From NCBI RefSeq assembly GCF_964204645.1, contig NC_134026.1:18246650-18310649 (forward strand): DNA of 64,000 bases. The letters run 5' to 3'. This DNA comes from Tubulanus polymorphus (taxonomy: Eukaryota > Nemertea > Palaeonemertea > Tubulaniformes > Tubulanidae). A model generated the notes under the pieces. The model searched no databases, was not told the DNA's origin, and was given only the letters and a program-made list of their open reading frames with translations. Below are positions 1,787 to 34,326 of this stretch, piece by piece; position 1 is the stretch's first letter; each line of letters opens with the position of its first letter. The position numbers and the translations under genes are program-made.

Positions 1787-3823
1787 GAACCAGCGGAGGG
1801 ACTTTGCGTACAATTCGTAGACCGGACTGTCCTTGTATCTCGAAGTTGTTGTTATGTTATAGAATTTGTAAATAGTGTAAATTTATGTGACAGTTATCCA
1901 AATGTAAATAGAGATATCGTTGGCTCGCATGTAAATTCTCATACGGTAGATACATACCCTGATGTAAATAGTAACAATCATGTACCTGATGTAACTCCTA
2001 ACAATTTCATTTCTGATGTAAATAAGCGAAATATTAACACTTCTGATTTAAATAAGCAAAATGTAACTAGTACAGCAAACGCAGCAAACATAAGTGAAAT
2101 TCCTTGTATCAAATCATCATTAAAGTTTTCTACGCTGAATGTATGTGGCCTTATAGCTAAACTCGATATCCCAGAATTCTGTGAATTTATTAGCAATAAT
2201 GACATCACATGTCTAACTGAAACTCACTTAGATGATTTAGACGGTAATTTAGGTTGTAGCTTGCCCGCCTCCCATATGGCGCACTTTAAAAATAGGAAAA
2301 AATTTTCAAAAAAAGGATCAGGTGGCGTCGGTATCATATATAGGAAGTTCATGAAAAATAAAATAAAACCAATTTCGACTGACTCTCAGTTTGTATCTTG
2401 GTATTTATTAGATAAAGATTTATTTAATCGCGACAAACATGTACTTTTAGGTGTAATTTATATTCCTCCAGAAAATAGTCGTTATTATTCAGAAATAGCT
2501 ATCAGAGAAATTGAAATAGAGTTATTGCAATTGAAAGTTGAGTATGATTTCAATGTGTTAATTTCTGGTGACTTTAATGCTCACACCGCTTGTATGCCAG
2601 ACTTTTTGGAACCTGATAATCAGATAATTCAAGATGATAACTTAGACCCTATTGTTGACTCATTGATTAATTTAGGCGTTCCCACTACTAGAAATAATCA
2701 GGACAAAAGAAAGAATAATACAGGCTATCAACTAATAGATTTGTGTAAGAACCATTCACTAATTATCCTCAATGGCAGATGTGGCAATGATCAGACAGGT
2801 AATTATACTTTTAGGAACACTAGTGTCATCGATTATTTTGTGTGTGATTTAGAACTGTTTGGTTATGTTGAGGACTTTGAAATAATGCCTTTTGACCCAT
2901 TATTATCTGATGGACATAATCCTGTTAATCTGTGCGTGTATACGAATTCTAGGGACACCATTGCTAGCGATAATGAAAGGGGTAATGAACACGCGAACTT
3001 TAAAACTTCAATTAGGTGGGTCAGTACTAGATCAAATCAATTTTTCCTGAATGTAGAATCAAGATTACGAGATAATGATCTAGATAAGTTACTGTTGGAC
3101 GGGTTGCAAGATCTAGGAAATCAATCGCCAGATGACATTAATGGACTTACCGATAGATTTGTATCTTCTTTATTATCAAGTGCTGATGAGTGTAATTTGA
3201 TGTACCATAGAAAAAGTAGGAAAAGTAATAACTGCAAAAAAACGGTCCGCAACAGATGGTTTGGCAGGGACTGTAGAGATGCACAGAAGAAATATAATTA
3301 TATGAAAAAAAGATATAGGGGTTGCCCTACCCCTTCCAATTTTGAATCCCTTAAGAACTCGTCTAAAAACTATAAAAAGGTCATCCGAGAAAATAAGAAG
3401 AAACAAAAGGATGAATTTATTAAGGAATTGAGAGAATGCGAAATTAATAACCCAAAAAAGTATTGGTCGATGCTAAACTCTGCGAGCGGAACAAAAAATA
3501 ATGAGGCTAATATAGATATTGATATTTTTCTTGAACATTTTATGAGATTAAATGATTTGAATAATGTTAACAATGAAACCGATGACGGTGATGAGCCCCC
3601 AGACGTGGGTGACCACCCTGTCTATGACAATTATATTTTGAACAGTGATATAACCAGTGATGAGGTAATTAAGGCTATCTCTTTACTCAAAAACAATAAG
3701 GCCCCTGGCATTGATGGAATCACGAATGAGCTGTTGGGAGTTAGTCAGTATCCGTTTTTAGTTGATATATTACAAAAATTATTCAATTTAGTTCAGGATA
3801 TGTTCCAGAGATGTGGTCTATAG
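1787..3823 (+). CDS. LINE ORF, endonuclease domain and start of RT linker (frameshifted at its end)
   Basis: The frame is open from just after a TAG at 1784-1786 to the stop at 3821-3823. No ATG precedes the endonuclease region (first ATG about 2276), so the true start is lost or uses upstream sequence. The first ~110 codons are low complexity, with repeated Asp-Val-Asn motifs. From about 2120 an endonuclease/exonuclease/phosphatase fold is legible: an LNVCGL block, CLTETHL around 2212, SGDFNAHT around 2570 (catalytic Asp/Asn) and SDGHNPV around 2908 (the usual S-D-H motif). A basic linker follows and then KNNKAPGIDGI at about 3690, the entry to the RT domain. The frame then runs into a stop while the next frame carries on the RT, so a one-base indel lies near 3790-3800. 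This copy is probably not translatable through the junction. Confidence 0.85.
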   Translation, partial: EPAEGLCVQFVDRTVLVSRSCCYVIEFVNSVNLCDSYPNVNRDIVGSHVNSHTVDTYPDVNSNNHVPDVTPNNFISDVNKRNINTSDLNKQNVTSTANAANISEIPCIKSSLKFSTLNVCGLIAKLDIPEFCEFISNNDITCLTETHLDDLDGNLGCSLPASHMAHFKNRKKFSKKGSGGVGIIYRKFMKNKIKPISTDSQFVSWYLLDKDLFNRDKHVLLGVIYIPPENSRYYSEIAIREIEIELLQLKVEYDFNVLISGDFNAHTACMPDFLEPDNQIIQDDNLDPIVDSLINLGVPTTRNNQDKRKNNTGYQLIDLCKNHSLIILNGRCGNDQTGNYTFRNTSVIDYFVCDLELFGYVEDFEIMPFDPLLSDGHNPVNLCVYTNSRDTIASDNERGNEHANFKTSIRWVSTRSNQFFLNVESRLRDNDLDKLLLDGLQDLGNQSPDDINGLTDRFVSSLLSSADECNLMYHRKSRKSNNCKKTVRNRWFGRDCRDAQKKYNYMKKRYRGCPTPSNFESLKNSSKNYKKVIRENKKKQKDEFIKELRECEINNPKKYWSMLNSASGTKNNEANIDIDIFLEHFMRLNDLNNVNNETDDGDEPPDVGDHPVYDNYILNSDITSDEVIKAISLLKNNKAPGIDGITNELLGVSQYPFLVDILQKLFNLVQDMFQRCGL

Positions 3824-5583
3824 GCGTCATCAAACCCATTTTCAAAAAGAATGGCGATCCCTCTAATCCTGATAATTATAGAGGTATTACCTTAGTTAGC
3901 TGTCTCGGTAAATTATTTACAAGTATCCTAAATCAAAGATTGTCAACATTTCTAGATACGAATCACATTATAAGTGAAGCCCAGGCTGGCTTTAGATCGA
4001 AATATTCCACCATTGATCATATTTACACGCTTAAAACAATCGTAGAGCTGTATCTTTGTCAGGGAAGAAGACTTTTTTGCGCCTTTGTTGATTTTAAGAA
4101 AGCTTTCGACTCGATTTGTAGGGTAAAGTTATGGCGAAAATTGATTGCTAACAATGTTAATGGAAACTTTTTCAATGTGGTCAAAAATATGTATAACTCC
4201 ATAAAATCATGTGTTGAATTAAATGGTTGCACGTCACAATACTTTGCAGCTGATAGAGGCTTAAGACAAGGCGAAAATCTCTCACCTATCCTCTTTTCGT
4301 TATTCTTAAACGACATTGAAGAATTTTTCATTGATCGTGGAAAACCGACTTTGTCATTTATAGAAAAACTAAATTTGAATCGTGATCAGGATATTGATAC
4401 TTTACTGAATTTATTCATAATACTATACGCAGATGATACAGTTATTCTTGCTGAGGATGAGAAATCTCTTCAGCTACACTTAGATACCTTATTTGAATAT
4501 TGCGCGGCTAATGGTCTCACTGTTAACTCAGAGAAAACTAAAGTACTAGTATTTGCGCGAAGTAAATCCCGGATAAAAACGATTTCGAAATTTATGTTTG
4601 GTGATCAAGAGTTAGAGGTAGTTGAAGTTTATGTTTATCTCGGAGTAAAATTCAATTGGAATGGTAACTTTGCTAAGGCAAAAAAGTATCTTTACGATAA
4701 AGCTATCAGAGCTATGTTTTCGATCGTTCAAAAAGGCAGACGTTTGAAATTGCCCATAGATGTTATGTTTAAATTATTTGATACGTGTGTTGCTCCAATA
4801 GCCATGTATGGGTGTGAGATCTGGGGATATGAAAATCTTGATTTATTAGAAAATATTCATTGCTTCTTCTGTAAAATCTTAATGAAAGTGACGAAATATT
4901 CTCGCAACTTACAAGTTTTATCAGAGCTAGGACGTTACCCTTTGAATATAGATGTTAGACGCAGGATGATTAACTTTTGGGTGAAAACAGTATCTGGAAA
5001 GCAAACCAAACTTAATTCAATACTCTATAAAATATCTTTCAATTTATTTTTAAGGGATAAATTTAAGAGCCCTTGGTTATCATATATAAAGAAAACGTTT
5101 GATGACTGTGGTTTGTCCTGCATTTGGACGCAGCAATTCATGACTAACAGTAAATCTTTTTCAAAACGAATAAAACAGATACTCCGTGACCAGCACCTTC
5201 AAGAAACTGTATCAGCCATAAATACTAATCCGATATACACTAACTTTAGGCAATATAAAAATGATATTAGGTTAGAGAAGTATATAATAGAACTTGGTGA
5301 TGACTTAGGAACTAGTTTATTTGAATTTAGGGTCGGGTCCTATATTTTACCTGTGAACAAATTTTCAAACCTTCATTTAGACAGAGCCGATAGAATATGC
5401 CCCACTTGTAATACTTTAGGTGACGAATCCCATTTTCTGTTTGACTGTACCTTACTTAACGAACAACGCAAAAACTTTTTGAATTTGAATACCTTTAATA
5501 CCCTTGATATTCTGAAAAACCCAACGGTCAACTTAGCTAAATTCATTAAGACCGGCTTAGATGTATATAGATCCCTCCAATAG
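3811..5583 (+). CDS. LINE reverse transcriptase and C-terminal zinc motif
   Basis: This is the RT continuation, offset by one frame from the endonuclease frame. The RT blocks appear in order: NYRGITLVSCLGKLF at about 3877, SEAQAGFRSKYSTIDH, VDFKKAFDS at about 4087 (first catalytic Asp), GLRQGENLSPILFSLF at about 4258, and the catalytic box YADDTVIL at about 4426. The thumb and C-terminal region follow. Near the end is a Cys/His cluster, CPTCN...ESHFLFDC, at about 5400-5450, like the C-terminal zinc-binding motif of many CR1/L2/I-type elements. Apart from the upstream frameshift the frame is clean over 590 codons, so the insertion looks fairly young. The stop is followed by AT-rich repeats and the hexanucleotide tail. 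Confidence 0.9.
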   Translation: MWSIGVIKPIFKKNGDPSNPDNYRGITLVSCLGKLFTSILNQRLSTFLDTNHIISEAQAGFRSKYSTIDHIYTLKTIVELYLCQGRRLFCAFVDFKKAFDSICRVKLWRKLIANNVNGNFFNVVKNMYNSIKSCVELNGCTSQYFAADRGLRQGENLSPILFSLFLNDIEEFFIDRGKPTLSFIEKLNLNRDQDIDTLLNLFIILYADDTVILAEDEKSLQLHLDTLFEYCAANGLTVNSEKTKVLVFARSKSRIKTISKFMFGDQELEVVEVYVYLGVKFNWNGNFAKAKKYLYDKAIRAMFSIVQKGRRLKLPIDVMFKLFDTCVAPIAMYGCEIWGYENLDLLENIHCFFCKILMKVTKYSRNLQVLSELGRYPLNIDVRRRMINFWVKTVSGKQTKLNSILYKISFNLFLRDKFKSPWLSYIKKTFDDCGLSCIWTQQFMTNSKSFSKRIKQILRDQHLQETVSAINTNPIYTNFRQYKNDIRLEKYIIELGDDLGTSLFEFRVGSYILPVNKFSNLHLDRADRICPTCNTLGDESHFLFDCTLLNEQRKNFLNLNTFNTLDILKNPTVNLAKFIKTGLDVYRSLQ

Positions 5584-9900: not shown

Positions 9901-11989
9901 GAGATCTTTTCTCGTGCAAGGATAAGAATCTCAACTGCGTTACCGCGATAATCTAAAAACTTGTCAAGATAAAATCCTTAGAATTTTGTGGTAGGTGTGG
10001 TTGCATGAAGATCAACCGAACCCCAAGATGGTTGCCTAACAGGCCATCTTATATTCCTAAAAAGTGCATTGTGGTCTCTAACTGTGAACATATTTCATTT
10101 AAAACATTGAAATTGCGCATAAGATATATGATATTATGTTATATCAGTAGATGGATCTAGGACATGAGTCAAGATGGCCATCTTTCAAAAATGTACCTTT
10201 TGGCTTAACTGTGAATTTATTTCATTTTGAACAATGATATCTCATGAATTTTCAAAGTCAACTCATAGGACCGGTCGGCGGAATCGAATAAGATTACTTC
10301 GTCAAGAATGTCATAAAATGCCTCCATTCTTTGACGCCCTCGAAATTGTGACTTTGGCATGTTCCAAGTTTCTTCCAAAAATATTTATCTATGATAAAGC
10401 CGGACCTATATTTCTTAGCTTCCATCCGGTCCCATAGTAATGATGATTCATAGACTTAATATAGTATTTCTTTCATTTTTACCATGATATCGGGGTTCGG
10501 AAATTATCAAATTATAACAATCTATTTACCGGGGAAATAGTTTTTAACCATGGGTCAACATTTGACTTAAAGATGTATAAGTTGGTATGCATATCTTTCT
10601 CCTACGCAAAGAATAACTCCGTAATTTTTTACCCACTATCACATCGGTGGAGTGATGTTTTTTGATTTGCCTTTGTCAAAATCTGTTTTTTAAGCCGAAT
10701 GCGTACAGGGAGCGTCCAAAAAGTACGTAACGATCAAAACAATTTTTGTGTTTAAAAATGCGGACCTTTTTCCTATTTCCAAGAGTTATCTTATCTCGAT
10801 AAATAATTGTCGTCTTTTGTTGGCACCTTTTACTGATAATCCCACATATCCAAGTTAGAACTCATGATGGAATAAAATTTTTTTCCAATAATTTCTTGTT
10901 TCATCGCACAAATACATATATAGAATAAATACACTACTACCTGGTGATTTTTCGAAAGGGTTTTCTGAAATTCATACTTAAATTGTCTTCTTTCTTGAAC
11001 GAAAACGCTGGCCTAGTGGGTCGGAATTTTATCGTGTAAGTCTGAAAACGACTAACTCTCAATCACGAATTCAGGTTATCACATAAGGGAAAAGTGTTGC
11101 TGGACCGTTTAGTTACCCTGGACACTCAGTGGCTGGCGTGATGCTGCTTCTATATGATCGGTCTATAAGATTGATGCAGTAAGTGCGCTGTTAAGGTTTC
11201 CTAGCGGGTGTTTTACGCAAGTCGTTACCATTTTGCTTCGTGCTTCAGTTATCATGATAATTGAATTGACACACTACCGTCGTTACCGTGATCCGGCTAT
11301 TCACTATCGTATAGAAGGAAATCTACATTACCTGCCGCCGAACGTTTTGAAATAACCATTGTGCCTTACCGTTCTATTCAAAAAGTCTGGGTCCTTTATT
11401 GTCTTACTCAACTGTTAAGAATAGCTACATTGGTTTGATGTAAATGTGTTTAATTATGAAAAATATGAATTTTTGATATCATATGTATGATATTATTCCT
11501 GATATCCAGCTCTCACTGCCCAGAGTTGAATATATTGAAGCAGCCCAGCATATTTTTGACTTGATTTATATACTATTTTATCCATCCCCTGATTTTCAAT
11601 TTAGCAGAAATGAGATAGAAGACATAATCAACCATTATTGGTATCTGCTAAGTCATGTAGCCTTCATGTAACTTTGAATGTCCTTAAATTATTATGCATG
11701 TAAATTAGTTTTCCAATTGAATGTGAATTTTTTGTATTTTGTATTCTCTTCTTCTCCTGTAGTCTGTACTTTTTGTACGAAATGAAGACGTATTATTATT
11801 ATATGAATATTGGTTAGTTTTTTATAGACTGTTGGTGAAAATATTATGCAATTCTAACTCTAATTTGTAAAGGAATGGATCTGTTACGTATTTGGGATAC
11901 CACAGTTGGATTCTTTTGAGGAAATTCGTCAATGTTAAAGTGGTGTTAAACGAATATGAATTGAAATATGTCTTTTATTTATATTTCAG
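6953..11989. other. Intergenic upstream of the IL-17-like gene, no gene recognised
   Basis: About 5 kb with only short, compositionally random open frames and no splice-consistent protein family. A sequence near 10712 (GAGCGTCCAAAAAGTACGTA) resembles ends of DNA transposons seen in many animals, but I could not find its partner. Upstream non-coding exons of the IL-17-like gene may lie here. The first coding exon is preceded by an acceptor-like TTTCAG at 11984-11989. Confidence 0.4.
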
Positions 11990-11993
11990 GATC

Positions 11994-14900
11994 ATGAGAA
12001 TCAATTTCTCACCATTTATTACATGGCTGTATATAGCAATTGCTGCTGTTTCAGGTAAGTCTTCCGCCTACAACAACCAAATCTTGTGCATGGTTATCGC
12101 TGTTAGGCAAATGTTTACTCAATATTTCAGAGCATTTTTAAATGTCAAACAACGCATTTCTGATTTACCCTGGCTGTTGACGGCCCGTTTATCATTTTCT
12201 ACTGAGATCTTGGCTATTTATTCAGTGTTCGATGTTATGTTCGCAAAACGCCAACGCCATGCGACAAGGCTACACGAATGGGCACTTGTCATCCAGGTTC
12301 CTAGAGAACAATGTTCAGCCGATCAGTGGGCTATATTTCCTGTTGCATTGTTTGCCTCCACATTTCTCAAAAACCTCTCAGCGATTTAAAGAATCGCGAG
12401 AAGGTTGGTTTAGAAAATATACGTGGGTGACGGCAATACGTTGAACCTATCCTAAATTCACTATTCGCGTATATAGTTGGTATAATCTGACGGATGAGGA
12501 TTACTCCGCGAGATTGATGCTCTGCGAAATTGATGCTCTACGTTGAAATGTCTTATTGAACTGTCTATAATGTCTATAATGTTGACAAGAACGGTAGTTG
12601 TTAGATTGCGACTTTTCGACCGTCGTCCTTGATGATCAGTCGAGTCAATCATTAAGGGTGTATCGATATATTACCATCTTGTAAATTTCTCTCACTTTTA
12701 TAGGTGTTAGTAAATCCGCTGGTCGTAAATCTTGTAGAACGTACAGAAATATAAGAGAACAGACGGACGACGATCTGATACTTTTGATGAGAGAAAAAGG
12801 TGCCCAGTATATACCGCACATAATGGCTATGGGAGAAGAAAGTTCCACTCGACAGTTCACTAATCTAATACCAACTGTTACTCATTACAGAGTCAGTATT
12901 GAAGTATTTTCCTTAAAGATTCTACTAAATCCAAATTAGCCGTCACCACAATTGTGGGATTTCTTATCCGCGTACTTGAAGTACATGGATCTGCAATTCT
13001 TATCTTGAAATATTTCACTTCCTTATACTGATTCAAAACCAAAAAATATAAAATAATCCTTGCTTCATATTATACGTCGTAATATTGCCCAACAGTCTGT
13101 TCTCTTCTAGGTGCCACTTCATAAAGTCCATATATTTGACAGTGTCCTGACTCGTAAGTCAACTAGGCTGCGGACTTATGGACTAGATTCAGCGAAAAAT
13201 AACTCAAATTCTGTGATAAAACAAATATATTTAAACAAAAAAGACAGACAGAAAAGAACTATCAACGCCAAAAGTCTGCGTCACCGTAAATACAGACGGG
13301 ACTTCGTTCATCCAAAAACTGTTGGCATCAATGGCACAGTTTGGATCGGAGCTGATGGTAAGTTAAGTAGTGAAATCGTACTGAAAGTGGGCCAAAACAG
13401 TTTGCGTTGCCATCAGCCATTATCGAATAAACATGGTCAGATATGATTTATAATACTTGTACGTGCTGGATTTGCTATTTGCAGACGCTGTTCAATTATG
13501 CTTGATTATGATTGTAGTGATCGTCCAGTGATTAATCGTCGCAAAAATTTCCAAACACTTGATAAAATAGTTGGCATACTCATCAATAATGTCATGTTTA
13601 TTATCTATAACTACAAATATGTACGAATATCATAATATGTTCATTGAGAAAACGTGATGACCTCGCACGGTAAGTTTTGTTAAATGAGGCAAATATTCCG
13701 ATCCAACTTCTGCCGTGGGTTCCATTATACAAACATGCAGTTTTTTAATGCAACGTGATATATACCGGAAGTGCCCGAAAGAAATTGTTGAAAGTCGTTG
13801 TATAGAAAAATTGCCGAATTTATTGTCATCGAAGCCAACATGGTTTTTATAAAAAATTTGAGAAACAGTTTTAATTAATTATCCATTACTAGCAAAATAC
13901 CCGACTCCTTGACGGGTTCGGTTTGCTGCTATAGACAGAAAACCCGTTATCGCTGTTCTGCAGCTATTTAACAAACTATATTACGATGGAATTGCATCCC
14001 GCTTGTGTGGGCGCTTCTATCGACAGACGACATTGAATCAGCCAATAGGGGTTTTTTCTTTTTGATGATCAACACGTGTCTGCTTAGTAACAACGCCTTG
14101 TTCCTTGTTCAAATGCTTTACACAAAAACAACGACTGGGAAATATCGAGGAGTCTTCTTGAATTAATCAGAATGTTTTCTCGGATATTCAATCTATTTAT
14201 TTTTTTCAGGGTCAAGGACAAAAATAGAGTACTGCCAAAGACGGGGCTCGAAAAATCACGATGGATACATGAATATGTGTAATTGGTGTGCTGCAACGAC
14301 GACACTGCCCAGTAATAGAATACCACGAGTAATCAACGAAGTTATTTGCAATCCAGGATATACTGGATGTTTTGTAGGACCTGATTACACAGGTTAGCGC
14401 ATTTTCAGTTAATACTTATGTCTCACAGTGGAGGAGACTATTTTTTATGTGCCCACCATCCGCCGTGTCGCCTATAGACCTCGTTAGCCCCTTACATTAT
14501 CGGCTATCAAATATGGCCGCCAGGGCAGTTATCTTGAATTTCTAGTTAGCGCGATATGGCCGATAACTCCTGATGGATTTTCATGAATCTTAATGTGAGG
14601 ATTGGGGCAGGTATTTGCCCATTCGAATTGGAGGTCATCGGCTATCATATATGGTCACCCGGCAGGCATCTTGAATTTCTTGTCAGTACGATACAGGGGC
14701 GGATCCAGGGGCATGTTGTGATCATGTCGACCAGTAGAAAGGGCATATATTCTTAATTTAGGGCGGGAAGGCATATCAGCAAGATTTTTGAAATTATACT
14801 AACATTTTAGAGCTTTCTGAGCATCTCTGAGAGGCATTCAGTCAAGAAACATAGGTTATATATTTTGGAAAAATATTCTATTGTGTATCTCAGGTGGTAA

Positions 14901-17592
14901 CAACGGCAAATTTTACAGAGAAAAAATAAAAAGGCGCTTTAAAATTCCGACCGTGTCGGGCGACACGGTCGACACGGTCTAAATCCGCCCTGCGATAAAG
15001 CCTACATCTCTCGGTGGATTTTCATAAATGAAACTCAATGTGAGGATTGGGGCAATTGGATGTCAACCCCTATTGAAAATGGAGGTCATCGGCCATCAAA
15101 CATGACCGTTAGGGCGCCTCTTGAATATCTTGTTAGCAATATACAGCGTGCAGACAGGTCTATTTATCTCGAACTAAATCAATGATTCTCACAAAGTCGA
15201 TGAAAAATTAAGTTAACGCTGCTCTTTATGAAGTATGCAATGTTTGTTACCTGTCTTCAATTTCTTGTCCTTTTGCTGTTCACTGACCCAGGGAAGATAT
15301 ACGTCGCGTTGCCATATTTTAGTCGAATAAAATCTGGTTAGTGTTTGTTGACATTGATTATTAGTGGATATCCGTAAGAGAAAATGAAAATATGAAATTA
15401 TTTTGGGGCATTTGTTGTGATTAAGCCAATTTCAAACGTGGCTACATTTGGTCATTTGGTATTGTAAATATTCGTGAGACCGATTTTGTTCATTTTTGAA
15501 ATCAGTTATGTATCGGGTAAAAGGTTACTAATACTTTCGGCTCCCATTTCTACAAAATGATAGTAGTGGTGATTTCATACGCGTATCCAGTAAGGAAATA
15601 TCAACCCATGGCCTTCGGGACATCGATGAATGACTCTTGGTGACAGACTATTTTGGCGACCATCGTGGAAACTTTGTTTGTGGATCTAAACCATCAATGT
15701 CATGTACTACATACGTCGTAGTGTTGCATCAACTAAATCTAAAATTCATCGTTATCGATACGTTATCAAATATCAAAACCCATGAGAAAACATTCAATCC
15801 TCGTAAGTGCAATCGACTGATTGACGTGTTAATCGTTTATCGAGGTCATGCCACGACGAAGATAGTTTCGAATCTGGTTAGAAAATAAGTCCTCCGACAC
15901 TGAAAATCTAATTTTTACCTTATATAGTAATTGTCTTTTTCAAAGCTTAATCATTTTCTTCTATTTAATGTGATTATTATGCGATGATGAGTCAGTAATA
16001 TGATATCCATGTTGTAGTTCAGAAGAACCACACGCGGACAAACTTGTTCATGTTTGCTCCAACAACAGCTCCTGCATTCAAAAACAATAAATCTATATTC
16101 ATCTTTTGAATGCCAAAATGTTGGACAAATTTCTGAAGTGTTGTTTTGCTTTTTGCAAAATGTTCTTTATCAGCATTTATATGGTATTTTTATTCAATCT
16201 CATGAAGAATATTGATTTCTTTCATTGTACTCTATTGGATAACGAAGATCGCTTGAAGCAAGGATGGTAAATTTACATTGAAACTGATTGAAACCACCCT
16301 TTATCTATGAACAATAATATGATAACCTTACGCCGTACCTAGAATGAGAGTCATTTTATGGACTTTGGTTTTAGCGAAGTCCATTTTGCTAACGCATATG
16401 AAACTTTCTTCCTTTGGTACAAAATACGTAACTTTCAAACGAGGCTTAGTTTCTCTTCGAAACTTTTCAAAACATTCAACGTAGTAATGAAAGCTCTAAC
16501 CTATTGAATTTCGTCGGAATCCGTTGCTAATTTAGTTCGCGTGTCCTAGTTCAAGTTTTCTTGGAAACTACAAATGATTCAACTGCCAGGGTTCGTTGCA
16601 GGCGTCCGTGAAAAGCCTTGAACTTTATGGAAGGGCAGTGAAATTGGGAAAGGAAGAAGTGAATCTTAGAAATTTTTTAATTTACGAAAATAAATTGTCT
16701 AACGAACTTCGTACACAGTGTATGTAATAAATGAAATCATCACACCATTAACGTGGAGAGTGTCTATTTAAGCTTGTGGGAAAACCCACTACCATGTGTA
16801 TTCATGATGAATCATCATGCAGTTGTGTGTGATAACAACAGCGCTTCATGGAGATCTTGTCAATAGGCAGATTTTCATAAAAGCTTCTTGATTCGATCAA
16901 GGGGGGCATTTAAGGTTTTTTGCTTACTTGGAGCACGGATTCTCTGAGATTCCGCGAAATACTTCATGCCGAAGATATGTAAGCGTTTCCAATCATAATC
17001 TGAAAGAAAATAAAATCTATTTCTTTTTATTTTCGTCCTTATTTTCGATCTAATTATCCGTAAAAAGTAAGTTTCCTCCGATCATTTGAATTCAATCCAA
17101 TAGTATTCCCTCTTTTTCATGCTCTGCTTAATCTCTAGAGTACCAATGTTTTATTCTGGTGCTGGATTACATACACTCATGTAAATTTTAGGAAAGTCCA
17201 TATTAAGAATTTCGTTCCTTGTTTAGACCTTAGATTCTGGAACATGTTATGTATGATTTGTTATAGTCTTTTTATAGGTAGGTAAAGGATTACGAGTTTA
17301 GCCCAATTTCCTCAAGAATGACGATGGGAGAGTGTATTGGTAATTTCAACACGAATAACGACAAGCAAACCTCATCTTTTCAGAGCATGGGATTTGTAGA
17401 CAAAAATACATGAATTTGAAAATGGTGCGTAAGCGGACAGTACAAGACAGTAGTTGTAGATTTTCCGATAAATATGGGAAGTCGGTAGTGATGGTGTTGG
17501 ATGACTGGGAGCTTTACCAACAAACAATAAGAACAGGTTGTGAATGCGCATTCGATTCTCGATCGAAATTTGCCTCTTTTATCAAGCCGTAG
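11994..17592 (+). CDS. IL-17-like secreted cystine-knot cytokine, five coding exons
   Basis: Coding exons are 11994-12054, 12704-12891, 13111-13357, 14210-14392 and 17384-17592 (888 nt, 295 aa). All junctions are in phase with GT donors and AG acceptors. Exon 1 encodes a hydrophobic signal peptide (residues 1-20) from an ATG four bases after an acceptor-like AG, so a 5' non-coding exon is likely. Residues 21-165 form a basic pro-region with a furin-type RQKR at 129-132 and an N-glycosylation site at Asn157. Exons 4-5 hold the IL-17 signature: Cys189-x-Trp, then NRIPRVINEVIC ending at Cys212, Cys219, Cys251, and the terminal GCEC at Cys279/Cys281. Matches to the family are the N-R-I-P...E-x-x-C block and the closing G-C-x-C. 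IL-17s act as secreted dimeric ligands of IL-17 receptors. The unusually long N-terminal region and the wide Cys212-Cys219 spacing are odd. The exon 2 donor (GTCAGT) is the weakest junction. Confidence 0.78.
14500..15150. repeat. Tandem ~140-bp units in IL-17-like intron 4, interrupted by a MITE
   Basis: Units beginning ATCGGCTATCA... or ATCGGCCATCA... start at about 14500, 14637 and 15088. They share blocks such as GTGAGGATTGGGGCA and GATGGATTTTCAT or GGTGGATTTTCAT. The second unit is longer by about 300 bp because of the insertion at 14694-14992. Removing that insertion restores a unit close to the others. Confidence 0.75.
14694..14992. mobile_element. 299-bp TIR element, hAT-like ends
   Basis: The left end is CAGGGGCGGATCCAG and the right end is the inverse of CAGGGCGGATTTAG. 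The element is flanked by CGATA on both sides (14689-14693 and 14993-14997). Related tandem units without the insert give an empty-site comparison. Near the right end is a perfect hairpin, GACCGTGTCG/CGACACGGTC, at 14949-14970. The CAGGG ends recall hAT elements, but those normally make 8-bp duplications, so the superfamily is uncertain. Confidence 0.75.
16340..17205 (+). repeat. Dispersed repeat copy 1 (inverted partner at 35117-36141)
   Basis: This stretch in IL-17-like intron 4 matches the reverse complement of 35117-36141 over most of its length. Shared blocks include TTCCTTTGGTACAAAATA, a CCATTTTGCTA block and the TAGAGTACCAAT block at the far end. The two differ by many substitutions and indels, so they are old copies. 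No coding capacity was recognised in either. Confidence 0.8.
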
Positions 17593-17690
17593 CAGTTGAA
17601 TAAACGTTCGATCGATTTACAAACTATGTAAAATACATGAAATACTAGTTAGTAAACCTATGAATTGAAAATTACTTTTTTAAGAAAACA

Positions 17691-23859: not shown

Positions 23860-25045
23860 GCAATTTGCATTGCTTTCTTACTGACGGTCTATCAATGCGC
23901 ATAGCACTGTCAGTTTAATTGCAACGCATCCACGGACCTAACTACGCACTGTACGTATATTAGAAACACAAAACTGCTCCCCGTGTAAAAACTTTTACTT
24001 TAGGCAAACTCAGTACCAGATGTGAAGTACCATCTGCGCACCCCTTGACGGAGAAACCCATCCTCATCGGAGCTGCACCGTCGATGTCATACAACTACAC
24101 TTCGGATACCCCAGGACCATACTCCCATCTGGAAAACTTGCGTTTCGAAATGTGCTTCCTTTCTATCTAGTCAACACGCGAGATCATCAACTTAGAGCAC
24201 TTCGACATCAACATCTACCCGAGAAAATAACTACAATAAACTAACGGACTATTTACACGTAGAAAACGACAAAAAAAATGGATAAAATGATCTTCAACCT
24301 TGTAATATTGCTATTTCCAAAATCTCGATGTATTAAATTAGGCAGCCAAGAAAATTCACCCCAATCAGTTGCTTGCCGGTTCAGACTGAATGGAAGATTG
24401 TTTGAATGAACCGGAACCGAATTTCCAATTATCTACATCGATTTAAAAAAAGATTCTGTTAACTCGACCGCCGATCACACAACTATATTTGTACTTCGAT
24501 TTCCGATTTTAAAATCAAACCCCCTGTTTCGCTCCCGGCAGGTGTGTTTGGTCTGTATGAGACACTCAATCAAAAAATCACACGTTATTTACCAGCCAAA
24601 TAAATAACAGGGGAATTCCATATTTTAAGATCAAAAACCTACATAGCCAGAATCCCAAAGAACCGGTGGGTTGGCCTCAAAGTCGTATAGCTACATACTT
24701 AAATAAATAAGAATTTTAAATAGATACAACTACATCCTCAGGCCAAAGTCGTGAACATCACCACGAAAACCGGGCAGCTGGAAAAGATCGTCCAGAACCC
24801 CAACATTATACGGCCAAATGGCAAAGAAAATGGGAAACGTGTGGTCCCTTCTCCAGTAAATAAATTGAGATTAAATGATTGTTAACAAACTGAACCTATG
24901 TACACTTACTAAAACATGTCGACCGTCCCCGGACTCATACCGAAGGCCGGCAAAGCCAACTGCAAGGTCCCTAGTCCCCCGAACATGGAACGAAGGGAAC
25001 TTGAGACGGCTAAATGGAAGGACCGGACGAGTGACAGCGCTTCTC
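23860..25045. other. Intergenic or possible 3' flank of the minus-strand DIRS fragment
   Basis: No gene recognised. The last few hundred bases are richer in GC than the region before and may belong to the DIRS-type fragment that starts just after, but I found no terminal repeat to fix its end. Confidence 0.35.
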
Positions 25046-26303
25046 TTAAACGAGAACCACGGCGCCCAAAGAAGCCAAAGAATCTAACTGCTCCGACACG
25101 TCACGTAAGTAGAAGTACGCAAAGGTAGACGGGGCGGACCGAAAAGCTGCCAACAAACCTGGTCTAAAAACCACAATAGAAAACCGCCCACGAGATCGAA
25201 CCTCGTGAGACACTACTCTCGCGGAATTGGGCACCCCTTCTTGGATGAGCGCCTCCTTGGTGAGCGAGACTATCCAGCGGGCTACCGTGTCCCTGGAAAT
25301 ATCAGACTCAAAGCCCTGACTGGGCACAAGGCTGAGTCCGGCAAGTCGCCAGAAACTCCCCAGAAACTCCCTAGGTCAGCGCCTCAATTCTCCACTCCCT
25401 ACCCACAGACATGGGTTCTGGTTTTTTGCAAGGACCGACAATCCCGGGCGAAGCAGAATAAACTGGTCAAGGGGGCCAAAAACAATATGACCTGGCCGAG
25501 CCGACAAGGCATGAAGCTCCGACCTGCGCGTCGCCATAGCTATACACAGTAAAAACACGGTATTCTTTGTCGGACGTGAAAACGACAGAGAAGCTAAAGG
25601 CTCGTATGGAGCCCAATTCAAAACGACAGTCAAATCCCATGGGGGAAGATCCCAGATCAACTTCGGACGAGAAATGGAAATCCTGCAATCAGCTGTGAAA
25701 TACGAGGATCTGCCATGACTGACGGAAGGCCCACCGAGCGATGGGTATGGGAGATCGCCGACCTATAGCCTTTCACTGTACATACTTGAAAACCTTTTTC
25801 CTTGAAAAGAAAATGGGGAAAATCGGCTAAATCCGCTACAGAGGGAGAGCGAGGGTCCACCTGTCTCCCACGGCCCCAGTTACTGAAGAGCTCCCAATTG
25901 GAGTCGTAAATGAGACCTGTAGAGGGTCGTCTCGAAGCGACGATATACGAGGCAACGTTTGCCGAAAAACCTTCACTCTGTAGACTACGCTGGACAGCGG
26001 CCACGCGTGAAGATTGAGCCAATGTAGATTGGGGTGTTGCTTGAACCGACCCTGCGACAGAAGCGACGGAAACACTGGGAGAACCCTGGGGCTGTCGCAC
26101 AAGAGCTGGAGCTGAATGTGGAACCATGACTGGATTTGCCAGCAGGGAGCCACCAGGACAAATTTGTAGTTGGTTGCTTGTTCCAACCGGAGAGCGCCTA
26201 GCCGATGAGAGGAATCGGGGGGAATGCGTACGCGTGTAGATCCTCCCAGTCTTGAGCTAACGCGTCGACGCCCACGCATGGTCGTCCGGGAAGGGAGGCA
26301 CAA
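25046..26303 (-). pseudogene. DIRS-type retrotransposon fragment: end of RNase H region plus tyrosine recombinase
   Basis: Read from 26303 down. A stretch resembling the region after DIRS RNase H comes first (RLEQATNYKFVLVAPCW, about 26180-26120). Next is the core-binding part of a tyrosine recombinase (LQSEGFSANVASYIVASRR...VKGYRSAISHTH, about 25970-25740). Then the catalytic domain appears in other frames: ATRRSELHALSA (first Arg) near 25540, SRDTVARWIVS near 25295, SHEVRS (H-x-x-R) near 25205 and TFAYFYLRDV (candidate Tyr) near 25115. All expected catalytic motifs are present, but at least two frameshifts separate them. Such enzymes integrate circular cDNA of DIRS/Ngaro elements. The gag and RT parts belonging to this copy are not present on this strand. 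Confidence 0.8.
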
Positions 26304-26490
26304 ACGCTGGGCACCGGGAGTTGTTTCTCAGCGACACCGGTGTAATAATCTGACACTACACAGTTTGCCTGAAGTCTTCAGCCCGATCGGTCGACTTTTG
26401 TCTGGTGAGCATTCCGTTTGTCTTATTTCTAGTGAGGTTGGGGTTTTGAAGGTTTGGAAGTTTTTTTTTATTTTAGATTTTGCGCCAACT

Positions 26491-26757
26491 AGTGAAGTTG
26501 GGCAGTTAAGATTTGTGCCAAATAGTGAGGTTAGGCAGTGAAGATTTTGTGCCAGCTAGTGAGGTTGGGCAGTGAAGATTTTGCGCCAACTAGTGAGGTT
26601 GGGCAGTGATAATTTGCGCCAACTAGTGAGGTTGGGCATTAAAGATTTGTGCCAACTGGTGAGATTGGACAGTAAGATTTTGCGCCAACTAGTGAGGTTG
26701 GGCAGTAAAGATTTGTGCCAACTAGTGAGGTTGGACAGAAAAAAATTTGTTGCAAGC
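26491..26757. repeat. 33-34-bp minisatellite, about eight copies
   Basis: Units of the form AGTGAGGTTGGGCAG...GCCAACT repeat from 26491 to about 26757, with a further partial unit at about 26431. It sits between two oppositely oriented DIRS-type fragments and may be leader sequence of one of them. It reads open in one frame but only as repeated L-R-Q-L-V-R-L peptides, which I take as accidental. Confidence 0.85.
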
Positions 26758-26998
26758 TAAAGGGTTCATGGTTTGTGCTAGCTAAGTATATGGCTAGCGA
26801 GGCCGGTAACATTTTTGGCTAGAATGTGTTACACGTAGTTTGCTTTTAGTATGTCTTATTATTAACGGGCGAATACTGTTCACAAATTCATACATTTTAT
26901 TATTGTTATTATTGAGATCTCTGGGCTGCTACACTTGTATTAAAGTAAGCTTTTATCATTGTTATCTGATCCACTACATGTGATATGCACTAACTCAC

Positions 26999-27355
26999 AA
27001 CTTGGTCAACTGGCAAATTTCTTGCCCTTGGATTCTAAGAGGTCTCTGCAGGTCTTTACCTCGGTTCTTTAACTCTTGTTTGGCTCGGGCGTTTGGGAAT
27101 TTACTCGTCGTTCTCAGGGTGACTTATACCCTAGGGTACATTCATCTTTATTGCTTATTTAATTTTTCTTAGCTATTGTGGTGGGTTTTTGCCCCAGGTT
27201 GAACTTGCACAGTGGAAGTCTACCACCAAGAAGCAGCTGCTCAAACTTACAATTTGGTCAACTGGTAAATTTCTTGCCCTTGGATCTTTAGAGGTCTTTG
27301 CAGGTCTTTACCTCGGTTCTTTAACCTTTGTTTGGCTCGGGCGTTTGGGAATTTC
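26999..27355 (+). repeat. ~105-bp direct repeat, two copies
   Basis: A sequence containing GGTCTTTACCTCGGTTCTTT and GGCTCGGGCGTTTGGGAATTT occurs at about 27002-27105 and again at 27251-27354. It lies at the start of the plus-strand DIRS-type fragment. Confidence 0.8.
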
Positions 27356-29610
27356 CCTTAGCGCAAAACTACTCAGCCACGCGGGCTGGCATCTCGTATT
27401 TCCAGCAACCAGTGGACCCTGTGGTGCACCCAGCTTACTTGGAGTAGTACAAAGATTCGCTGGACCAAACGGTATGGGGAGCCCCTCGGCCCTCCCAGGA
27501 CTGGTCATGGCCTCCTCTCGAATCCGGTATCAAAGATCTAAAATTCTTTTCGTGCACGGAGCCGCATTTTACCGAATTTCGGCCCAGCTATTATGCGACT
27601 CTAGGTTCGTCATTCAAGCCAAACACGGCTATCGATGCGGATATGGTTATGTTGGGCATTTCCACGGCTCAACCTAGCACGTATGCCATGCCTAAACAGG
27701 CAATGGCGGCTATGCAATCATTGAGCGAAAGCATTTGCCAAATTGGTTCCTTTCAAGACATTGCTCGTTCGCGATGCATGGGGAACTGGCCTCAATAAAA
27801 TCCCGGCTTCGTCGGCGCCTGATTTTGATATGGTTTCGGATGGGGTCGCTACGATTGACAGACTCCTACAGCCATCAGCAAAAGCGATTTGTCATCAAGC
27901 GCCGGTGGCAGTCAGGTTACAGGCTAATCTGGCCTTGATAGCTCAGCACTCCTGGTTAAAAGATGCTTAACTCCCAGATGCGATTAAACAAAATTTGTAT
28001 AGGGCCCCGTTGGGGCTGTCAAGTCGTTTGTTTTTGGGCTGGTGTGGGCCGGCAGCTCAACAAGCTCAAAGGCTGGAGGATTCGCAGCAAAAGACGGCCC
28101 CTTAGCGTATTCCTAAGAAAAAGGATGCGGCCAATTCGATCGGGAAATCGGTTTTGGTTACGGTACATGACGGTGCTAACCGGTCGGCCCAGTATCGACA
28201 GGCCGGTTGGTCTTCGAATAGTTCTAATGCCTTTACTTTGAATCAGAAGTCGGGCAAGAAGTTCTCCGTAAGGGTAAAGGTCCAACAAGGTCAAGCCCTT
28301 TCGGAGGCAGACTAATCAAACGCAATGAAGGATCCGTATCTGTGGGAGCATGCCTAAGAGGCTGCCCTTCCCGCTGGTACGATATCTTTGGCGATACCTG
28401 GCCGACACGAACAGGATCGGCCGGGTACCGGATTCAGTTTCGAAAGAAACCTCCCTCGGGGAGGTCCCCTCCGGACATGCGACCCAAGAAAGGTCAGGAG
28501 CAGCACATTACCCCGGCGATACAGGAGCTAATCGAAAAAGGAGCCTTGCGTCGCGTTCGGGGTCATCCCTCTCGGGGTTGGTATTCCAGGATCTTCACCG
28601 TTTCCAAGGACGGTGATAGACCTCTCTCTCCTAAACAAGTTTCTTGACTGCCCAAAATTCAAAATGATGACCCCCAAAGAAGTCATTCAAGGCCTGAAAC
28701 CCGGGAAATCGGCTGCTTCTATCGACCTGAAAGACGCTTATTTTTAAGTGCCGGTGCATCCGAAGTCACAGCGGTGTCTTCGAGTAAAGGGGAAATGCGT
28801 CCACTATCAGTTCACGTCGCTGCCCTTCCGCCTGAGTTCAGCCCCCTTGGGTATTTACCAAGGTCGTAAAGGTGGTCCAGAAAAGGCTACAAAGGAAAGG
28901 TATTCGTCTTTTTGTATACCTAGACCATTGGGTTGGGGGTAGGCAATTCGGAGGAGGAATGTCGAAGAGTGATCGGAGAGACGTTCGATCTCGTTCGGGA
29001 ATTAGGTTTCCTCGTAAACAAGAAGTCCCAGCTGGCCCCATCGAAGAAATTCCTTTATCTCGGAATGTTTTTCGATCTCGTTCGAGTGATATTCCAGCCG
29101 GCGGACGGCCGAAAAGAGAAACTGAAATCGGCAGTTCTCGGCTTGATCAGTGGAACACAGCGTTCCTCTCGTTTTTGGTCGCAGACATATCAACATTGTA
29201 GAGATATTAGCGGTCTGGAAAGCCCTTAAGTGTTTTCGACGTCAGGTTTGCGGTCGCCATGTCCGGATAGTGACAGACAATTCGACGATGAGGGCCTACT
29301 TGCAGAATCATGGCGGCACAAGGTCTCACATCCTCTCCCAGTTGTCCTTTCGGATTCTACTCTGGTCTTTGGCTCGCGGGACGGTTCTGTCCTGCGCACC
29401 TAGCGGGCAAACTCAATGTGGTCACGGACGCCCTATCGCGTCAAGATCGCCCCATTCCGACGGAATGATCACCTAATGGGGATGCCGACCTTGGATCTAT
29501 ATGCCACGCGGTTCTATCCTTTTTCCCCTTTTTTTCTCATCCCTCTCTCCTCCCCAAACTCATCCCCAAACTCATCAACAAAAAAGAGAAAGGGACGGGA
29601 AGACGTCTAG
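27189..29610 (+). pseudogene. DIRS-type retrotransposon fragment: gag-like, reverse transcriptase, RNase H
   Basis: Many frameshifts and stops break a recognisable order. A probable gag-like part comes first (about 27190-28320). The RT entry block follows (KGALRRVRGHPSRGWYSRIFTVSK, about 28530-28610), then FKMMTPKEV...ASIDLKDAYF with a stop straight after (about 28660-28746), VPVHPKSQRCLRV, and LPFRLSSAP. The catalytic box reads YLDHW (about 28915), where the family has YLDDW, so the second metal-binding Asp is lost. RNase H blocks follow (VEILAVWKALKCF and VTDNSTMRAYL, about 29195-29300). Near the end are TDALSRQDRP in another frame and MPTLDLYATRFY (about 29480), typical of the region after RNase H in DIRS/Ngaro elements. 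It is non-functional. Its own recombinase is absent downstream. Confidence 0.85.
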
Positions 29611-29619
29611 ATTTATTTC

Positions 29620-30135
29620 CAAACAAGCTTATAGGCCTAACAGCAAACTTCTCTTCCCTAAACCCACAAAGTCATGAGAGAACGGGTTTTGTGTATGTAA
29701 GCGATAGATATCCAAACACAGTTCTAAACAATCAAGCAGCTGCTTTTTGATGGTAGACTACCACAATGCAATACTGGCGTTATTTCCGGCCAAGCTAGCG
29801 TTGGCTATGTATGATTTTACAGGGAACGTATTGAAGGGAATACCCCAGCTGCTGAGGGTATTCCCTGGTATTTCCTCAACAACCAATCAGAGCGCAGCTT
29901 TCTCACAATGACGTCACAAGAGCTATCACGCAGGCCGCGGCATATCCCGTTGAAGAGCAGTGATTAGCTGAAAGAGCCCACGTGATCTCCACAGAATGAG
30001 GTATTCATTTTCCGGGTGGAACATATATTCGCGAAAAATTTAACGTTTTAAATGGCACTACGGTACGGTACAAAAGACGTGCACGGCATTTTGTTAGCAA
30101 GTTATTTCCGGAAAGGTCTCCAGACCATTATAAAG
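29620..30135. other. Spacer with palindrome and promoter-like motifs
   Basis: It contains an inverted repeat at 29835-29866 (AGGGAATACCC / GGGTATTCCCT around an 8-9 nt loop), then CCAATCAGAGCGC at about 29883, a CRE-type TGACGTCA at 29910-29917 and an E-box CACGTG near 29980. The cluster looks like a promoter or the regulatory end of a transposon. No transcript start can be assigned. Confidence 0.35.
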
Positions 30136-33358: not shown

Positions 33359-34326
33359 TTCTCCCTCAAAAGAATAAAATTGTGAGCGAAATTGTGAGCA
33401 TATTTATTCCTAATTCCAACCAGGAAAGTCCTCAGAATGCACCTTCAAGAATTGAAGATCCTTGCTTTTGGCACTTCGTGCAGATGTTGGCTTAGGGCCA
33501 ATAATATATGCAACATAGTGACCGATATATTCCACCTTTTCTCTAAAGCTAGATCCGCCCAAGATAACCTGTTGTCAGCCAATTGGCTGTATATTTTCTT
33601 TAATACTGACCAAATTTCGAGCCCATACACGGCAGGTGTGTTGGTGTGAACACATTCCTGCCAAGTCCCTAGTCTCATTATAATTTGTCTAAGAAAATTT
33701 CTTAGACTATATTTACCCATAACTGATCCTGCACAGTCATGCTTTAGATTTTGATTGTTTCACTTCAAAGCATCATTTTAAGTGGTCAGGAAATGCATCT
33801 AGAATGCTTCAAATCTTCAAAATTTTGGTGGGGGGTGGACCTTCTCCCTCAAAAGAATAAAATTGTGAGCGAAATTGTGAGCATATTTATTCCTAATTCC
33901 AACCAGGAAAGTCCTCAGAATGCACCTTCAAGAATTGAAGATCCTTGCTTTTGGCACTTCGTGCAGATGTTGGCTTAGGGCCAATAATATATGCAACATA
34001 GTGACCGATATATTCCACCTTTTCTCTAAAGCTAGATCCGCCCAAGATAACCTGTTGTCAGCCAATTGGCTGTATATTTTCTTTAATACTGACCAAATTT
34101 CGAGCCCATACACGGCAGGTGTGTTGGTGTGAACACATTCCTGCCAAGTCCCTAGTCTCATTATAATTTGTCTAAGAAAATTTCTTAGACTATATTTACC
34201 CATAACTGATCCTGCACAGTCATGCTTTAGATTTTGATTGTTTCACTTCAAAGCATCATTTTAAGTGGTCAGGAAATGCATCTAGAATGCTTCAAATCTT
34301 CAAAATTTTGGTGGGGGGTGGACCTT
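33359..34326. repeat. 483-bp tandem duplication, apparently identical copies
   Basis: 33359-33841 is repeated as 33842-34324, with no difference I can find, starting TTCTCCCTCAAAAGAATAAA. Each copy contains TAGATCCGCCC and a GTCTAAGAAA/TTTCTTAGAC near-palindrome. Just upstream (33304) is a hAT-like end, CAGGGCGGATCCAGGGG. The lack of divergence means either a very recent duplication or an assembly artefact. Confidence 0.9.

Follow-up and report, generated by a model that had tools for sequence, protein, structure and literature searches.

Does the five-exon gene at positions 11994 to 17592 of the window (the whole 64,000-nucleotide stretch of Tubulanus polymorphus DNA that was analysed) encode an interleukin-17 (IL-17) cytokine, as the first-pass annotation had proposed, or a cystine-knot ligand of another family? 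The analysis yielded the exon structure of the gene, a sister gene in the same genome and a nine-cysteine domain common to both, and the domain of the window gene fitted Trunk/PTTH/Noggin profiles better than IL-17 profiles. Judged from its sequence, we give an even chance to the reading that the gene belongs, though divergent, to the Trunk/PTTH (Noggin-related) secreted cystine-knot ligands. The protein appears somewhat nearer to Trunk/PTTH than to IL-17 and may lie between both families. The likely label is thereby questioned, since what looks like an IL-17 may be a growth factor resembling Torso ligands, and such an identity would point to development or neuroendocrine control, not to immunity.

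The gene lies on the forward strand, and its five exons were joined into an 888-base reading frame of 295 amino acids plus a stop codon. All four introns are GT-AG, with phases 1, 0, 1 and 1 and with the donors GTAAGT, GTCAGT, GTAAGT and GTTAGC in order. Coding exon 1 (11994..12054) carries the start codon and a hydrophobic stretch that was called signal-peptide-like by eye, and it ends in phase 1. Coding exon 2 (12704..12891) encodes an N-terminal segment with C31 and DDLILLMREKGAQYIPHIMAMG, resembling the N-terminus of the Trunk-like gene L023 described below, while exon 3 (13111..13357) encodes a basic pro-region. The first half of the cystine-knot domain, with C174, C189, C192, NRIPR, C212 and C219, is encoded by exon 4 (14210..14392); exon 5 (17384..17592) adds the second half, with C231, C251 and W268-x10-C279-x-C281, and the stop codon. 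The protein thus has ten cysteines (31, 174, 189, 192, 212, 219, 231, 251, 279 and 281). From the signal peptide to the domain (residues 21-166) the pro-region counts 146 amino acids with a net charge of +17, and its sole R-x-[KR]-R site is the furin-type RQKR at residues 129-132 (13246..13257, forward strand), a putative cleavage site. Splicing in phase, the signal-peptide-like start, the long basic pro-region and RQKR had all been described in the first-pass annotation and were confirmed here, as was a C-terminal cysteine pattern of the cystine-knot type that is at least distantly related to IL-17. A signal peptide, a pro-region with a cleavage site and a cysteine-rich C-terminal domain are also the features by which Trunk/PTTH precursors are defined in an excerpt of PMC8398477, and the window gene has this layout, its signal peptide by eye.

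Right behind the stop codon, a possible polyadenylation signal AATAAA was read from the sequence (17599..17604, forward strand). On the 5' side, 11980-11993 contains the acceptor-like TATATTTCAG, with AG at 11988-11989, four bases before the start codon; it is a candidate for the end of a 5' UTR intron or for a spliced-leader trans-splicing site. Taken together, the gene model looks real, and its product looks like a secreted, knotted signalling protein of an invertebrate.

Other features of the window were recorded as well. A non-LTR retrotransposon occupies 1787-5583 on the forward strand, with an endonuclease frame (1787-3823) and a reverse-transcriptase frame (3766-5583) in different reading frames. 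The block 24001-30000, probably a mobile element, is rich in G+C (0.47-0.50 vs 0.34-0.41 elsewhere) and in overlapping open frames; it contains a 33/66-base tandem array (26475-26738) and, at 29147-29473, an RNase H-like match below threshold. At 33359-34326 two tandem copies of 483 bases are 100% identical, so that either the sequence was duplicated very recently or the assembly is in error there. Scans of the window with Rfam (at gathering scores) and for tRNAs gave no matches.

A genome search with the window domain returned one further gene only, located at C2:20336996-20339046 on the minus strand, 2.1 Mb from the window gene. With this sister gene as query a third copy was not found; when the N-terminal part of the window gene was the query, only the gene itself and a chance match (E 8.7) were returned. 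The sister keeps introns 2, 3 and 4 with equal phases (0, 1, 1); at a domain identity of 41%, none of the nine domain cysteines is lost. Over 124 aligned codons, the differences between the two genes at codon positions 1, 2 and 3 numbered 59, 45 and 85, a pattern as for coding sequence. Because introns, phases and cysteines are shared and the codon differences are of the coding type, the gene model is supported independently of transcripts. The sister carries its own RSRR site; an Arg-Gly repeat run was observed behind it in the pro-region (2506-2755 of locus L013, minus strand). An in-frame ATG (MFSAFIIFLDSVFFG...) is present upstream of its second exon, and a scan of the fetched stretch for exon 1 gave, under looser criteria, one stop-free candidate that was rejected by the hydrophobicity filter.

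Cysteines 174, 192 and 231 had been singled out earlier as unusual and as a possible mark of a lineage-specific subtype. Since the sister keeps all three, they do mark a small subfamily. Among the reference sequences introduced below, C231 has counterparts in both families, C174 in IL-17s only (3/8 rows) and C192 in neither set. The IL-17 landmarks claimed for the gene fared less evenly: C-x-W and NRIP are present in the window gene, where the sister has C-T-T and NYFP in place of C189-N-W and NRIP.

Membership of the IL-17 family was examined with Pfam IL17 (PF06083), whose curated cut-off is 24 bits. Neither the 295-residue protein nor its 130-residue domain gave a match at E up to 10; a 95-residue trim reached 14.9 bits (E 0.037). 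The significant match over about residues 185-285 that the first-pass annotation had looked for was thus not obtained. On the same profile silkworm PTTH scored 12.0 bits and L023 scored 11.9 bits whole and 16.4 bits trimmed, while the trimmed sister and the trimmed second Trunk-like gene, L027, had no match. The sub-threshold score is non-diagnostic, because PTTH and L023 reach the same level as the window domain, and by itself it does not suffice to distinguish Trunk/PTTH proteins from divergent IL-17s. Four IL-17 genes of the same genome (L001-L004) scored 31.1-58 bits, and a genome-wide IL17 search at E up to 10 found seven places, none within the window. Two further genes of the genome, L033 and L034, are IL-17-like below threshold and end in VGC-x-P, so that of the final C-x-C only the first cysteine is present. 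Three SEFIR matches were also found in the genome, a presence that carries no information on binding. When the untrimmed window and sister domains were run against Pfam, HTH_43 alone was returned (E 0.19) and was dismissed as chance.

PTTH entered the analysis when a profile of the four own-genome IL-17 domains was searched against the PDB and its best non-IL-17 match was 5aoq_L, silkworm PTTH (E 0.039). The comparison of Trunk with IL-17 was set up after PTTH had surfaced as this weak match. Used as a query on the genome, PTTH found L023 (E 0.47) and did not return the window gene; two further weak matches, L022 (E 0.08) and L024 (E 3.1), were inspected and judged unconvincing. L023 (C2:17403628-17404479, minus strand) is an intronless single open frame of 289 amino acids from the first Met, with a basic pro-region, and PTTH was the sole PDB match of its domain at E up to 10 (E 0.01). 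L023 in turn found L027 (C5:859894-860214, minus strand; E 8.8e-6) and L027 found L023 (E 0.001); both are called Trunk-like by similarity. Two own-genome noggins, L028 and L029, lie above the Pfam Noggin (PF05806) cut-off of 24.1 bits, and the window protein had no Noggin match, whether whole, as the 130-residue domain or as the 95-residue trim. A PDB search with the whole window protein returned only a designed protein, a chance repeat match, and not PTTH; the two-row window/sister profile returned nothing, PTTH included. Spaetzle was rejected as an identity, as the window gene had no Pfam Spaetzle match and the spaetzle-like L021 of the genome does match; in hhalign L021 stayed below 1% both with Trunk/PTTH/Noggin and with IL-17. 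L021 (1141-1791) also matches Pfam NGF at the cut-off (27.1 vs 27 bits).

Profiles were built from hand-cut reference rows in small sets: five Trunk/Noggin rows (L023, L027, PTTH and the two noggins) or the first three of these, and six IL-17 rows (L001-L004 and human IL-17A/F), later eight with two divergent genes of the same genome. The window domain scored 26.8 bits and the sister 10.0 bits on the five-row Trunk/Noggin profile, 25.1 and 14.7 bits on the three-row profile, and 12.7 bits (equal to the score of PTTH) and 9.1 bits on the six-row IL-17 profile. The best shuffle of the window domain on the five-row profile reached 12.4 bits. Among 2000 shuffles with fixed cysteines, the observed scores of window and sister were reached by 0 and 1 on the five-row profile, by 0 and 0 on the three-row profile and by 1 and 2 on the IL-17 profile; the corresponding counts for 2000 full shuffles were 0 and 0, 0 and 0, and 0 and 4. 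Both families therefore match beyond chance and, for the window domain, Trunk more so.

The preference of the window domain was kept under changes of the reference sets. With one row left out at a time it scored 14.7-28.3 bits on the five Trunk/Noggin sets and 7.0-14.4 bits on the six IL-17 sets, where left-out members reached 25.6-51.1 bits (Trunk/Noggin) and 30.7-81.2 bits (IL-17) on their own family. Profiles of three members gave medians of 18.4 bits (0.8-25.1) for Trunk/Noggin vs 7.6 bits (2.6-10.8) for IL-17, and with own-genome sequences only the scores were 17.3 vs 9.8 bits. The IL-17 profile recovered the two divergent own-genome IL-17-like genes unseen, at 33.0 and 24.6 bits, and after these were added the window domain scored 10.3 bits. 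When upstream residues were added to all rows, it scored 25.4-25.7 bits on Trunk vs 13.7-15.9 bits on IL-17. Aside from the leave-one-out and three-member runs, its scores ranged over 17.3-26.8 bits for Trunk/PTTH/Noggin vs 9.8-15.9 bits for IL-17. The sister showed no such separation, with medians of 9.7 vs 9.3 bits on three-member profiles, level scores with upstream residues (10.8-14.8 bits Trunk vs 11.2-14.4 bits IL-17) and, aside from the three-member runs, ranges of 10.0-14.8 vs 7.7-14.4 bits. Among 949 open frames of at least 40 amino acids, taken from the window and from 7 of 32 loci chosen for holding no known member, exon 5 ranked first on Trunk/Noggin (19.4 bits) and third on IL-17 (5.3 bits), and exon 4 ranked second on Trunk/Noggin (9.0 bits) and first on IL-17 (10.2 bits).

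For the pair as a unit the outcome was less decided. A two-gene window/sister profile gave L027 19.4 bits, L023 9.1, PTTH 0.8, the noggins about 0 and the best IL-17 6.0. In hhalign with domain rows, the pair matched Trunk/PTTH at 85%, Trunk plus Noggin at 68% and IL-17 at 60% (six rows) or 37% (eight rows), and at 8% when compared with four IL-17s only. With upstream residues these values became 84.9% for Trunk/PTTH, 75.7% for Trunk plus Noggin, and 83.6% (six rows) or 59.1% (eight rows) for IL-17, a tie with no clear winner. The tie arises because C174 has counterparts in IL-17s, and both this cysteine and the tie lowered our confidence in the Trunk reading. The sister alone matched IL-17 at 14.3% vs 3.4-7.1% for Trunk/Noggin. 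The Trunk/PTTH/Noggin set (with L023 and L027) and the IL-17 set (with L001-L004) matched each other at 63-86%, depending on the sets compared; a common ancestry of the two families is thus possible, and so is a third branch formed by the pair.

The spacing of conserved residues was then compared. W-x10-C-x-C occurs in all five Trunk/Noggin rows, the window gene and the sister, and in one of six IL-17s (L004). Likewise C-x14-P occurs in all five Trunk/Noggin rows and in both genes, vs 3/8 IL-17 rows; three of the six IL-17s have C-x13-P. The window gene has the complete Trunk/PTTH spacing C-x14-P-x7-C ... W-x10-C-x-C, a pattern that was deduced in this analysis from three Trunk/PTTH and two noggin sequences and that is partly present in some IL-17s. 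The stretch before the last C-x-C measures 66-67 residues in the pair, 51-78 in Trunk/Noggin and 40-49 in the six IL-17s. An arginine two residues before the conserved proline, by contrast, is shared by the window gene with 6/6 IL-17s vs 0/5 Trunk/Noggin rows, and is absent from the sister. C174 and its sister counterpart stand 30 residues before this proline; a cysteine 29-32 residues before it was found in 3/8 IL-17 rows (L001, L002 and L004) and in 0/5 Trunk/Noggin rows, of which the PTTH row is too short to reveal one. Both cysteines also fit the position of the IL-17 upstream cysteine, about 15-18 residues before the CPW cysteine. C192, 12 residues before the proline, had a counterpart in 0/13 reference rows, and C251 aligned with cysteines of L023 and several IL-17s. 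The loops after the first knot cysteine are 6/18 (window) and 13/24 (sister) vs 4-7/11-13 in Trunk/Noggin. Outside the domain, the N-terminus of the window protein matched that of L023 (score 44.5, Z 5.2, 4/2000 shuffles as good), and it had no match to those of four IL-17s (best 416/2000 shuffles) or of the sister (1611/2000 shuffles). Of these features, W-x10-C-x-C, the lengths of the loops and the N-terminal match favour Trunk.

A tree of 13 domains over 83 columns, with long branches flagged, separated the IL-17s at 97/99 with the pair excluded, and separated Trunk plus Noggin weakly at 78/79; the pair was placed between the two groups. Along the tree path the nearest outside row was the Trunk-like L027, for the window gene and the sister alike. 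In pairwise alignments the window domain scored 55.0 with both IL-17 L002 and PTTH (Z 4.2 and 3.9). The sister aligned with IL-17F (Z 7.4, 0/1000 full shuffles) and IL-17A (Z 5.0, 1/1000) and had no match with PTTH (Z 0.1, 433/1000).

How, then, are these results best explained? That the gene has decayed, is not transcribed or was modelled wrongly is very improbable; two donors do differ from GTAAGT (GTCAGT and GTTAGC), but the frame is open across five exons, the cysteines and three introns are conserved against a sister that is 41% identical, and the substitution pattern is of the coding type. The view of the first-pass annotation, a highly divergent IL-17 cytokine signalling via SEFIR-domain receptors, could appeal to C-x-W and NRIP in the window gene, to C174 as in three IL-17s, to the weak Pfam match of the trimmed domain, to the 83.6% hhalign match of the pair with six IL-17s once upstream residues are included, and to the good alignment of the sister with IL-17F. 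The genome does hold IL-17s and SEFIR matches, and intron numbers vary among invertebrate IL-17s, so far as an excerpt of PMC4517768 describes them. We nevertheless consider it unlikely. The Pfam score lies under the cut-off and on a par with PTTH and L023, the window gene is absent from the seven genome-wide candidates, and the profile that gives unseen divergent IL-17-like genes 24.6-33.0 bits gives the window domain 10.3-12.7 bits; moreover, C-x-W and NR-x-P are missing from the sister, and the IL-17 clade excludes the pair. IL-17 membership was not established by these comparisons, with Pfam sub-threshold and Trunk/PTTH/Noggin profiles fitting the window domain better.

The main rival, possible but doubtful in our judgement, is that the pair constitutes a distinct third branch within the wider IL-17/Trunk/Noggin cystine-knot group, without orthology to either family and with a receptor of its own. 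Such a branch would suit the position of the pair between both groups in the tree, the mixture of IL-17-like features (C174, NR-x-P) with Trunk/Noggin-like ones (W-x10-C-x-C, a long last loop), a C192 found in no reference row and the extended loops behind the first knot cysteine, and the mutual match of the Trunk and IL-17 profiles makes an intermediate plausible. It sits less well with domain scores that favour Trunk by 8-16 bits for the window gene, with the N-terminal match to L023 and with L027 as nearest outside row for both genes. Should the pair, against what we think probable, represent a third branch of an ancient cystine-knot group linking IL-17, Trunk/PTTH and Noggin, the mixture of features would record the divergence of immune cytokines and developmental growth factors from a single ancestor, and a true position between the families would help to test the common origin of IL-17 and Trunk.

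If the gene is a Trunk/PTTH-type ligand, the precursor would enter the secretory route, and a cut after RQKR (residue 132) would release the C-terminal knot protein. In PTTH the disulfides are C40-C96, C48-C98 and C17-C54. Aligned with PTTH, C212/C279 and C219/C281 correspond to the knot pairs, C189 (not C192) to C17 and C231 to C54; by this alignment the predicted pairs are C212-C279, C219-C281 and, as the third, C189-C231. Past the cut nine cysteines remain; as this number is odd, one or more would be free or would bridge two chains. A covalent dimer would be expected, which would bind and dimerise a Torso-type receptor tyrosine kinase and drive Ras/ERK signalling. The cleavage step, dimerisation through disulfides and signalling via a Torso-type receptor are proposed here by analogy, on the basis of the Trunk/PTTH/Noggin literature.

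Among known systems, Bombyx mori PTTH (5aoq chain L) resembles the window gene in having, according to PMC8157905, a signal peptide, pro-peptides flanked by cleavage signals and a C-terminal knot domain, and it shares C-x14-P-x7-C and W-x10-C-x-C. It differs in having seven cysteines instead of nine and loops of 7 and 13 vs 6 and 18 after the first knot cysteine, and identity is low. The PTTH gene has five exons and four introns, a likeness to the window gene in number (PMC8157905, excerpt). Like the window gene, L023 has the N-terminal Cys...DEL..LM...YIP, a strongly basic pro-region and identical spacing at its end, but it is intronless and has shorter knot loops; L027 ends in W-x10-CEC and has LNDSYFPNILPEVFC where the window gene has LPSNRIPRVINEVIC. 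A C174-like cysteine is absent from both, unlike in the window gene. The noggins L028 and L029 have C-x14-P-R-x6-C and W-x10-C-x-C and, unlike the window gene, match Pfam Noggin. IL-17s (background from excerpts of PMC4517768, PMC8353272 and PMC5457136) share P-x7-C, a final C-x-C, NR-x-P and a C-terminal domain, with a C174-like cysteine in L001, L002 and L004; they differ by a Pfam score above the cut-off, by C-x13-P in 3/6 and by fewer residues ahead of the last C-x-C (40-49 vs 66). Invertebrate IL-17 introns are variable, with four in one Capitella gene (PMC4517768, excerpt). In the parts of the literature consulted, Trunk and PTTH have Torso as common receptor; reports of Trunk cover annelids, mollusks, brachiopods, nemerteans and further groups, and Torso has been reported in lophotrochozoans (PMC6660194). 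Noggin, noggin-like, Trunk and PTTH are treated there as similar cysteine-knot proteins, some of which activate Torso or block BMP (PMC9071555). The oyster, as described in the same excerpt that defines the Trunk/PTTH layout, has four PTTH/Trunk precursors, two of which include one more peptide, with potential dibasic sites (PMC8398477).
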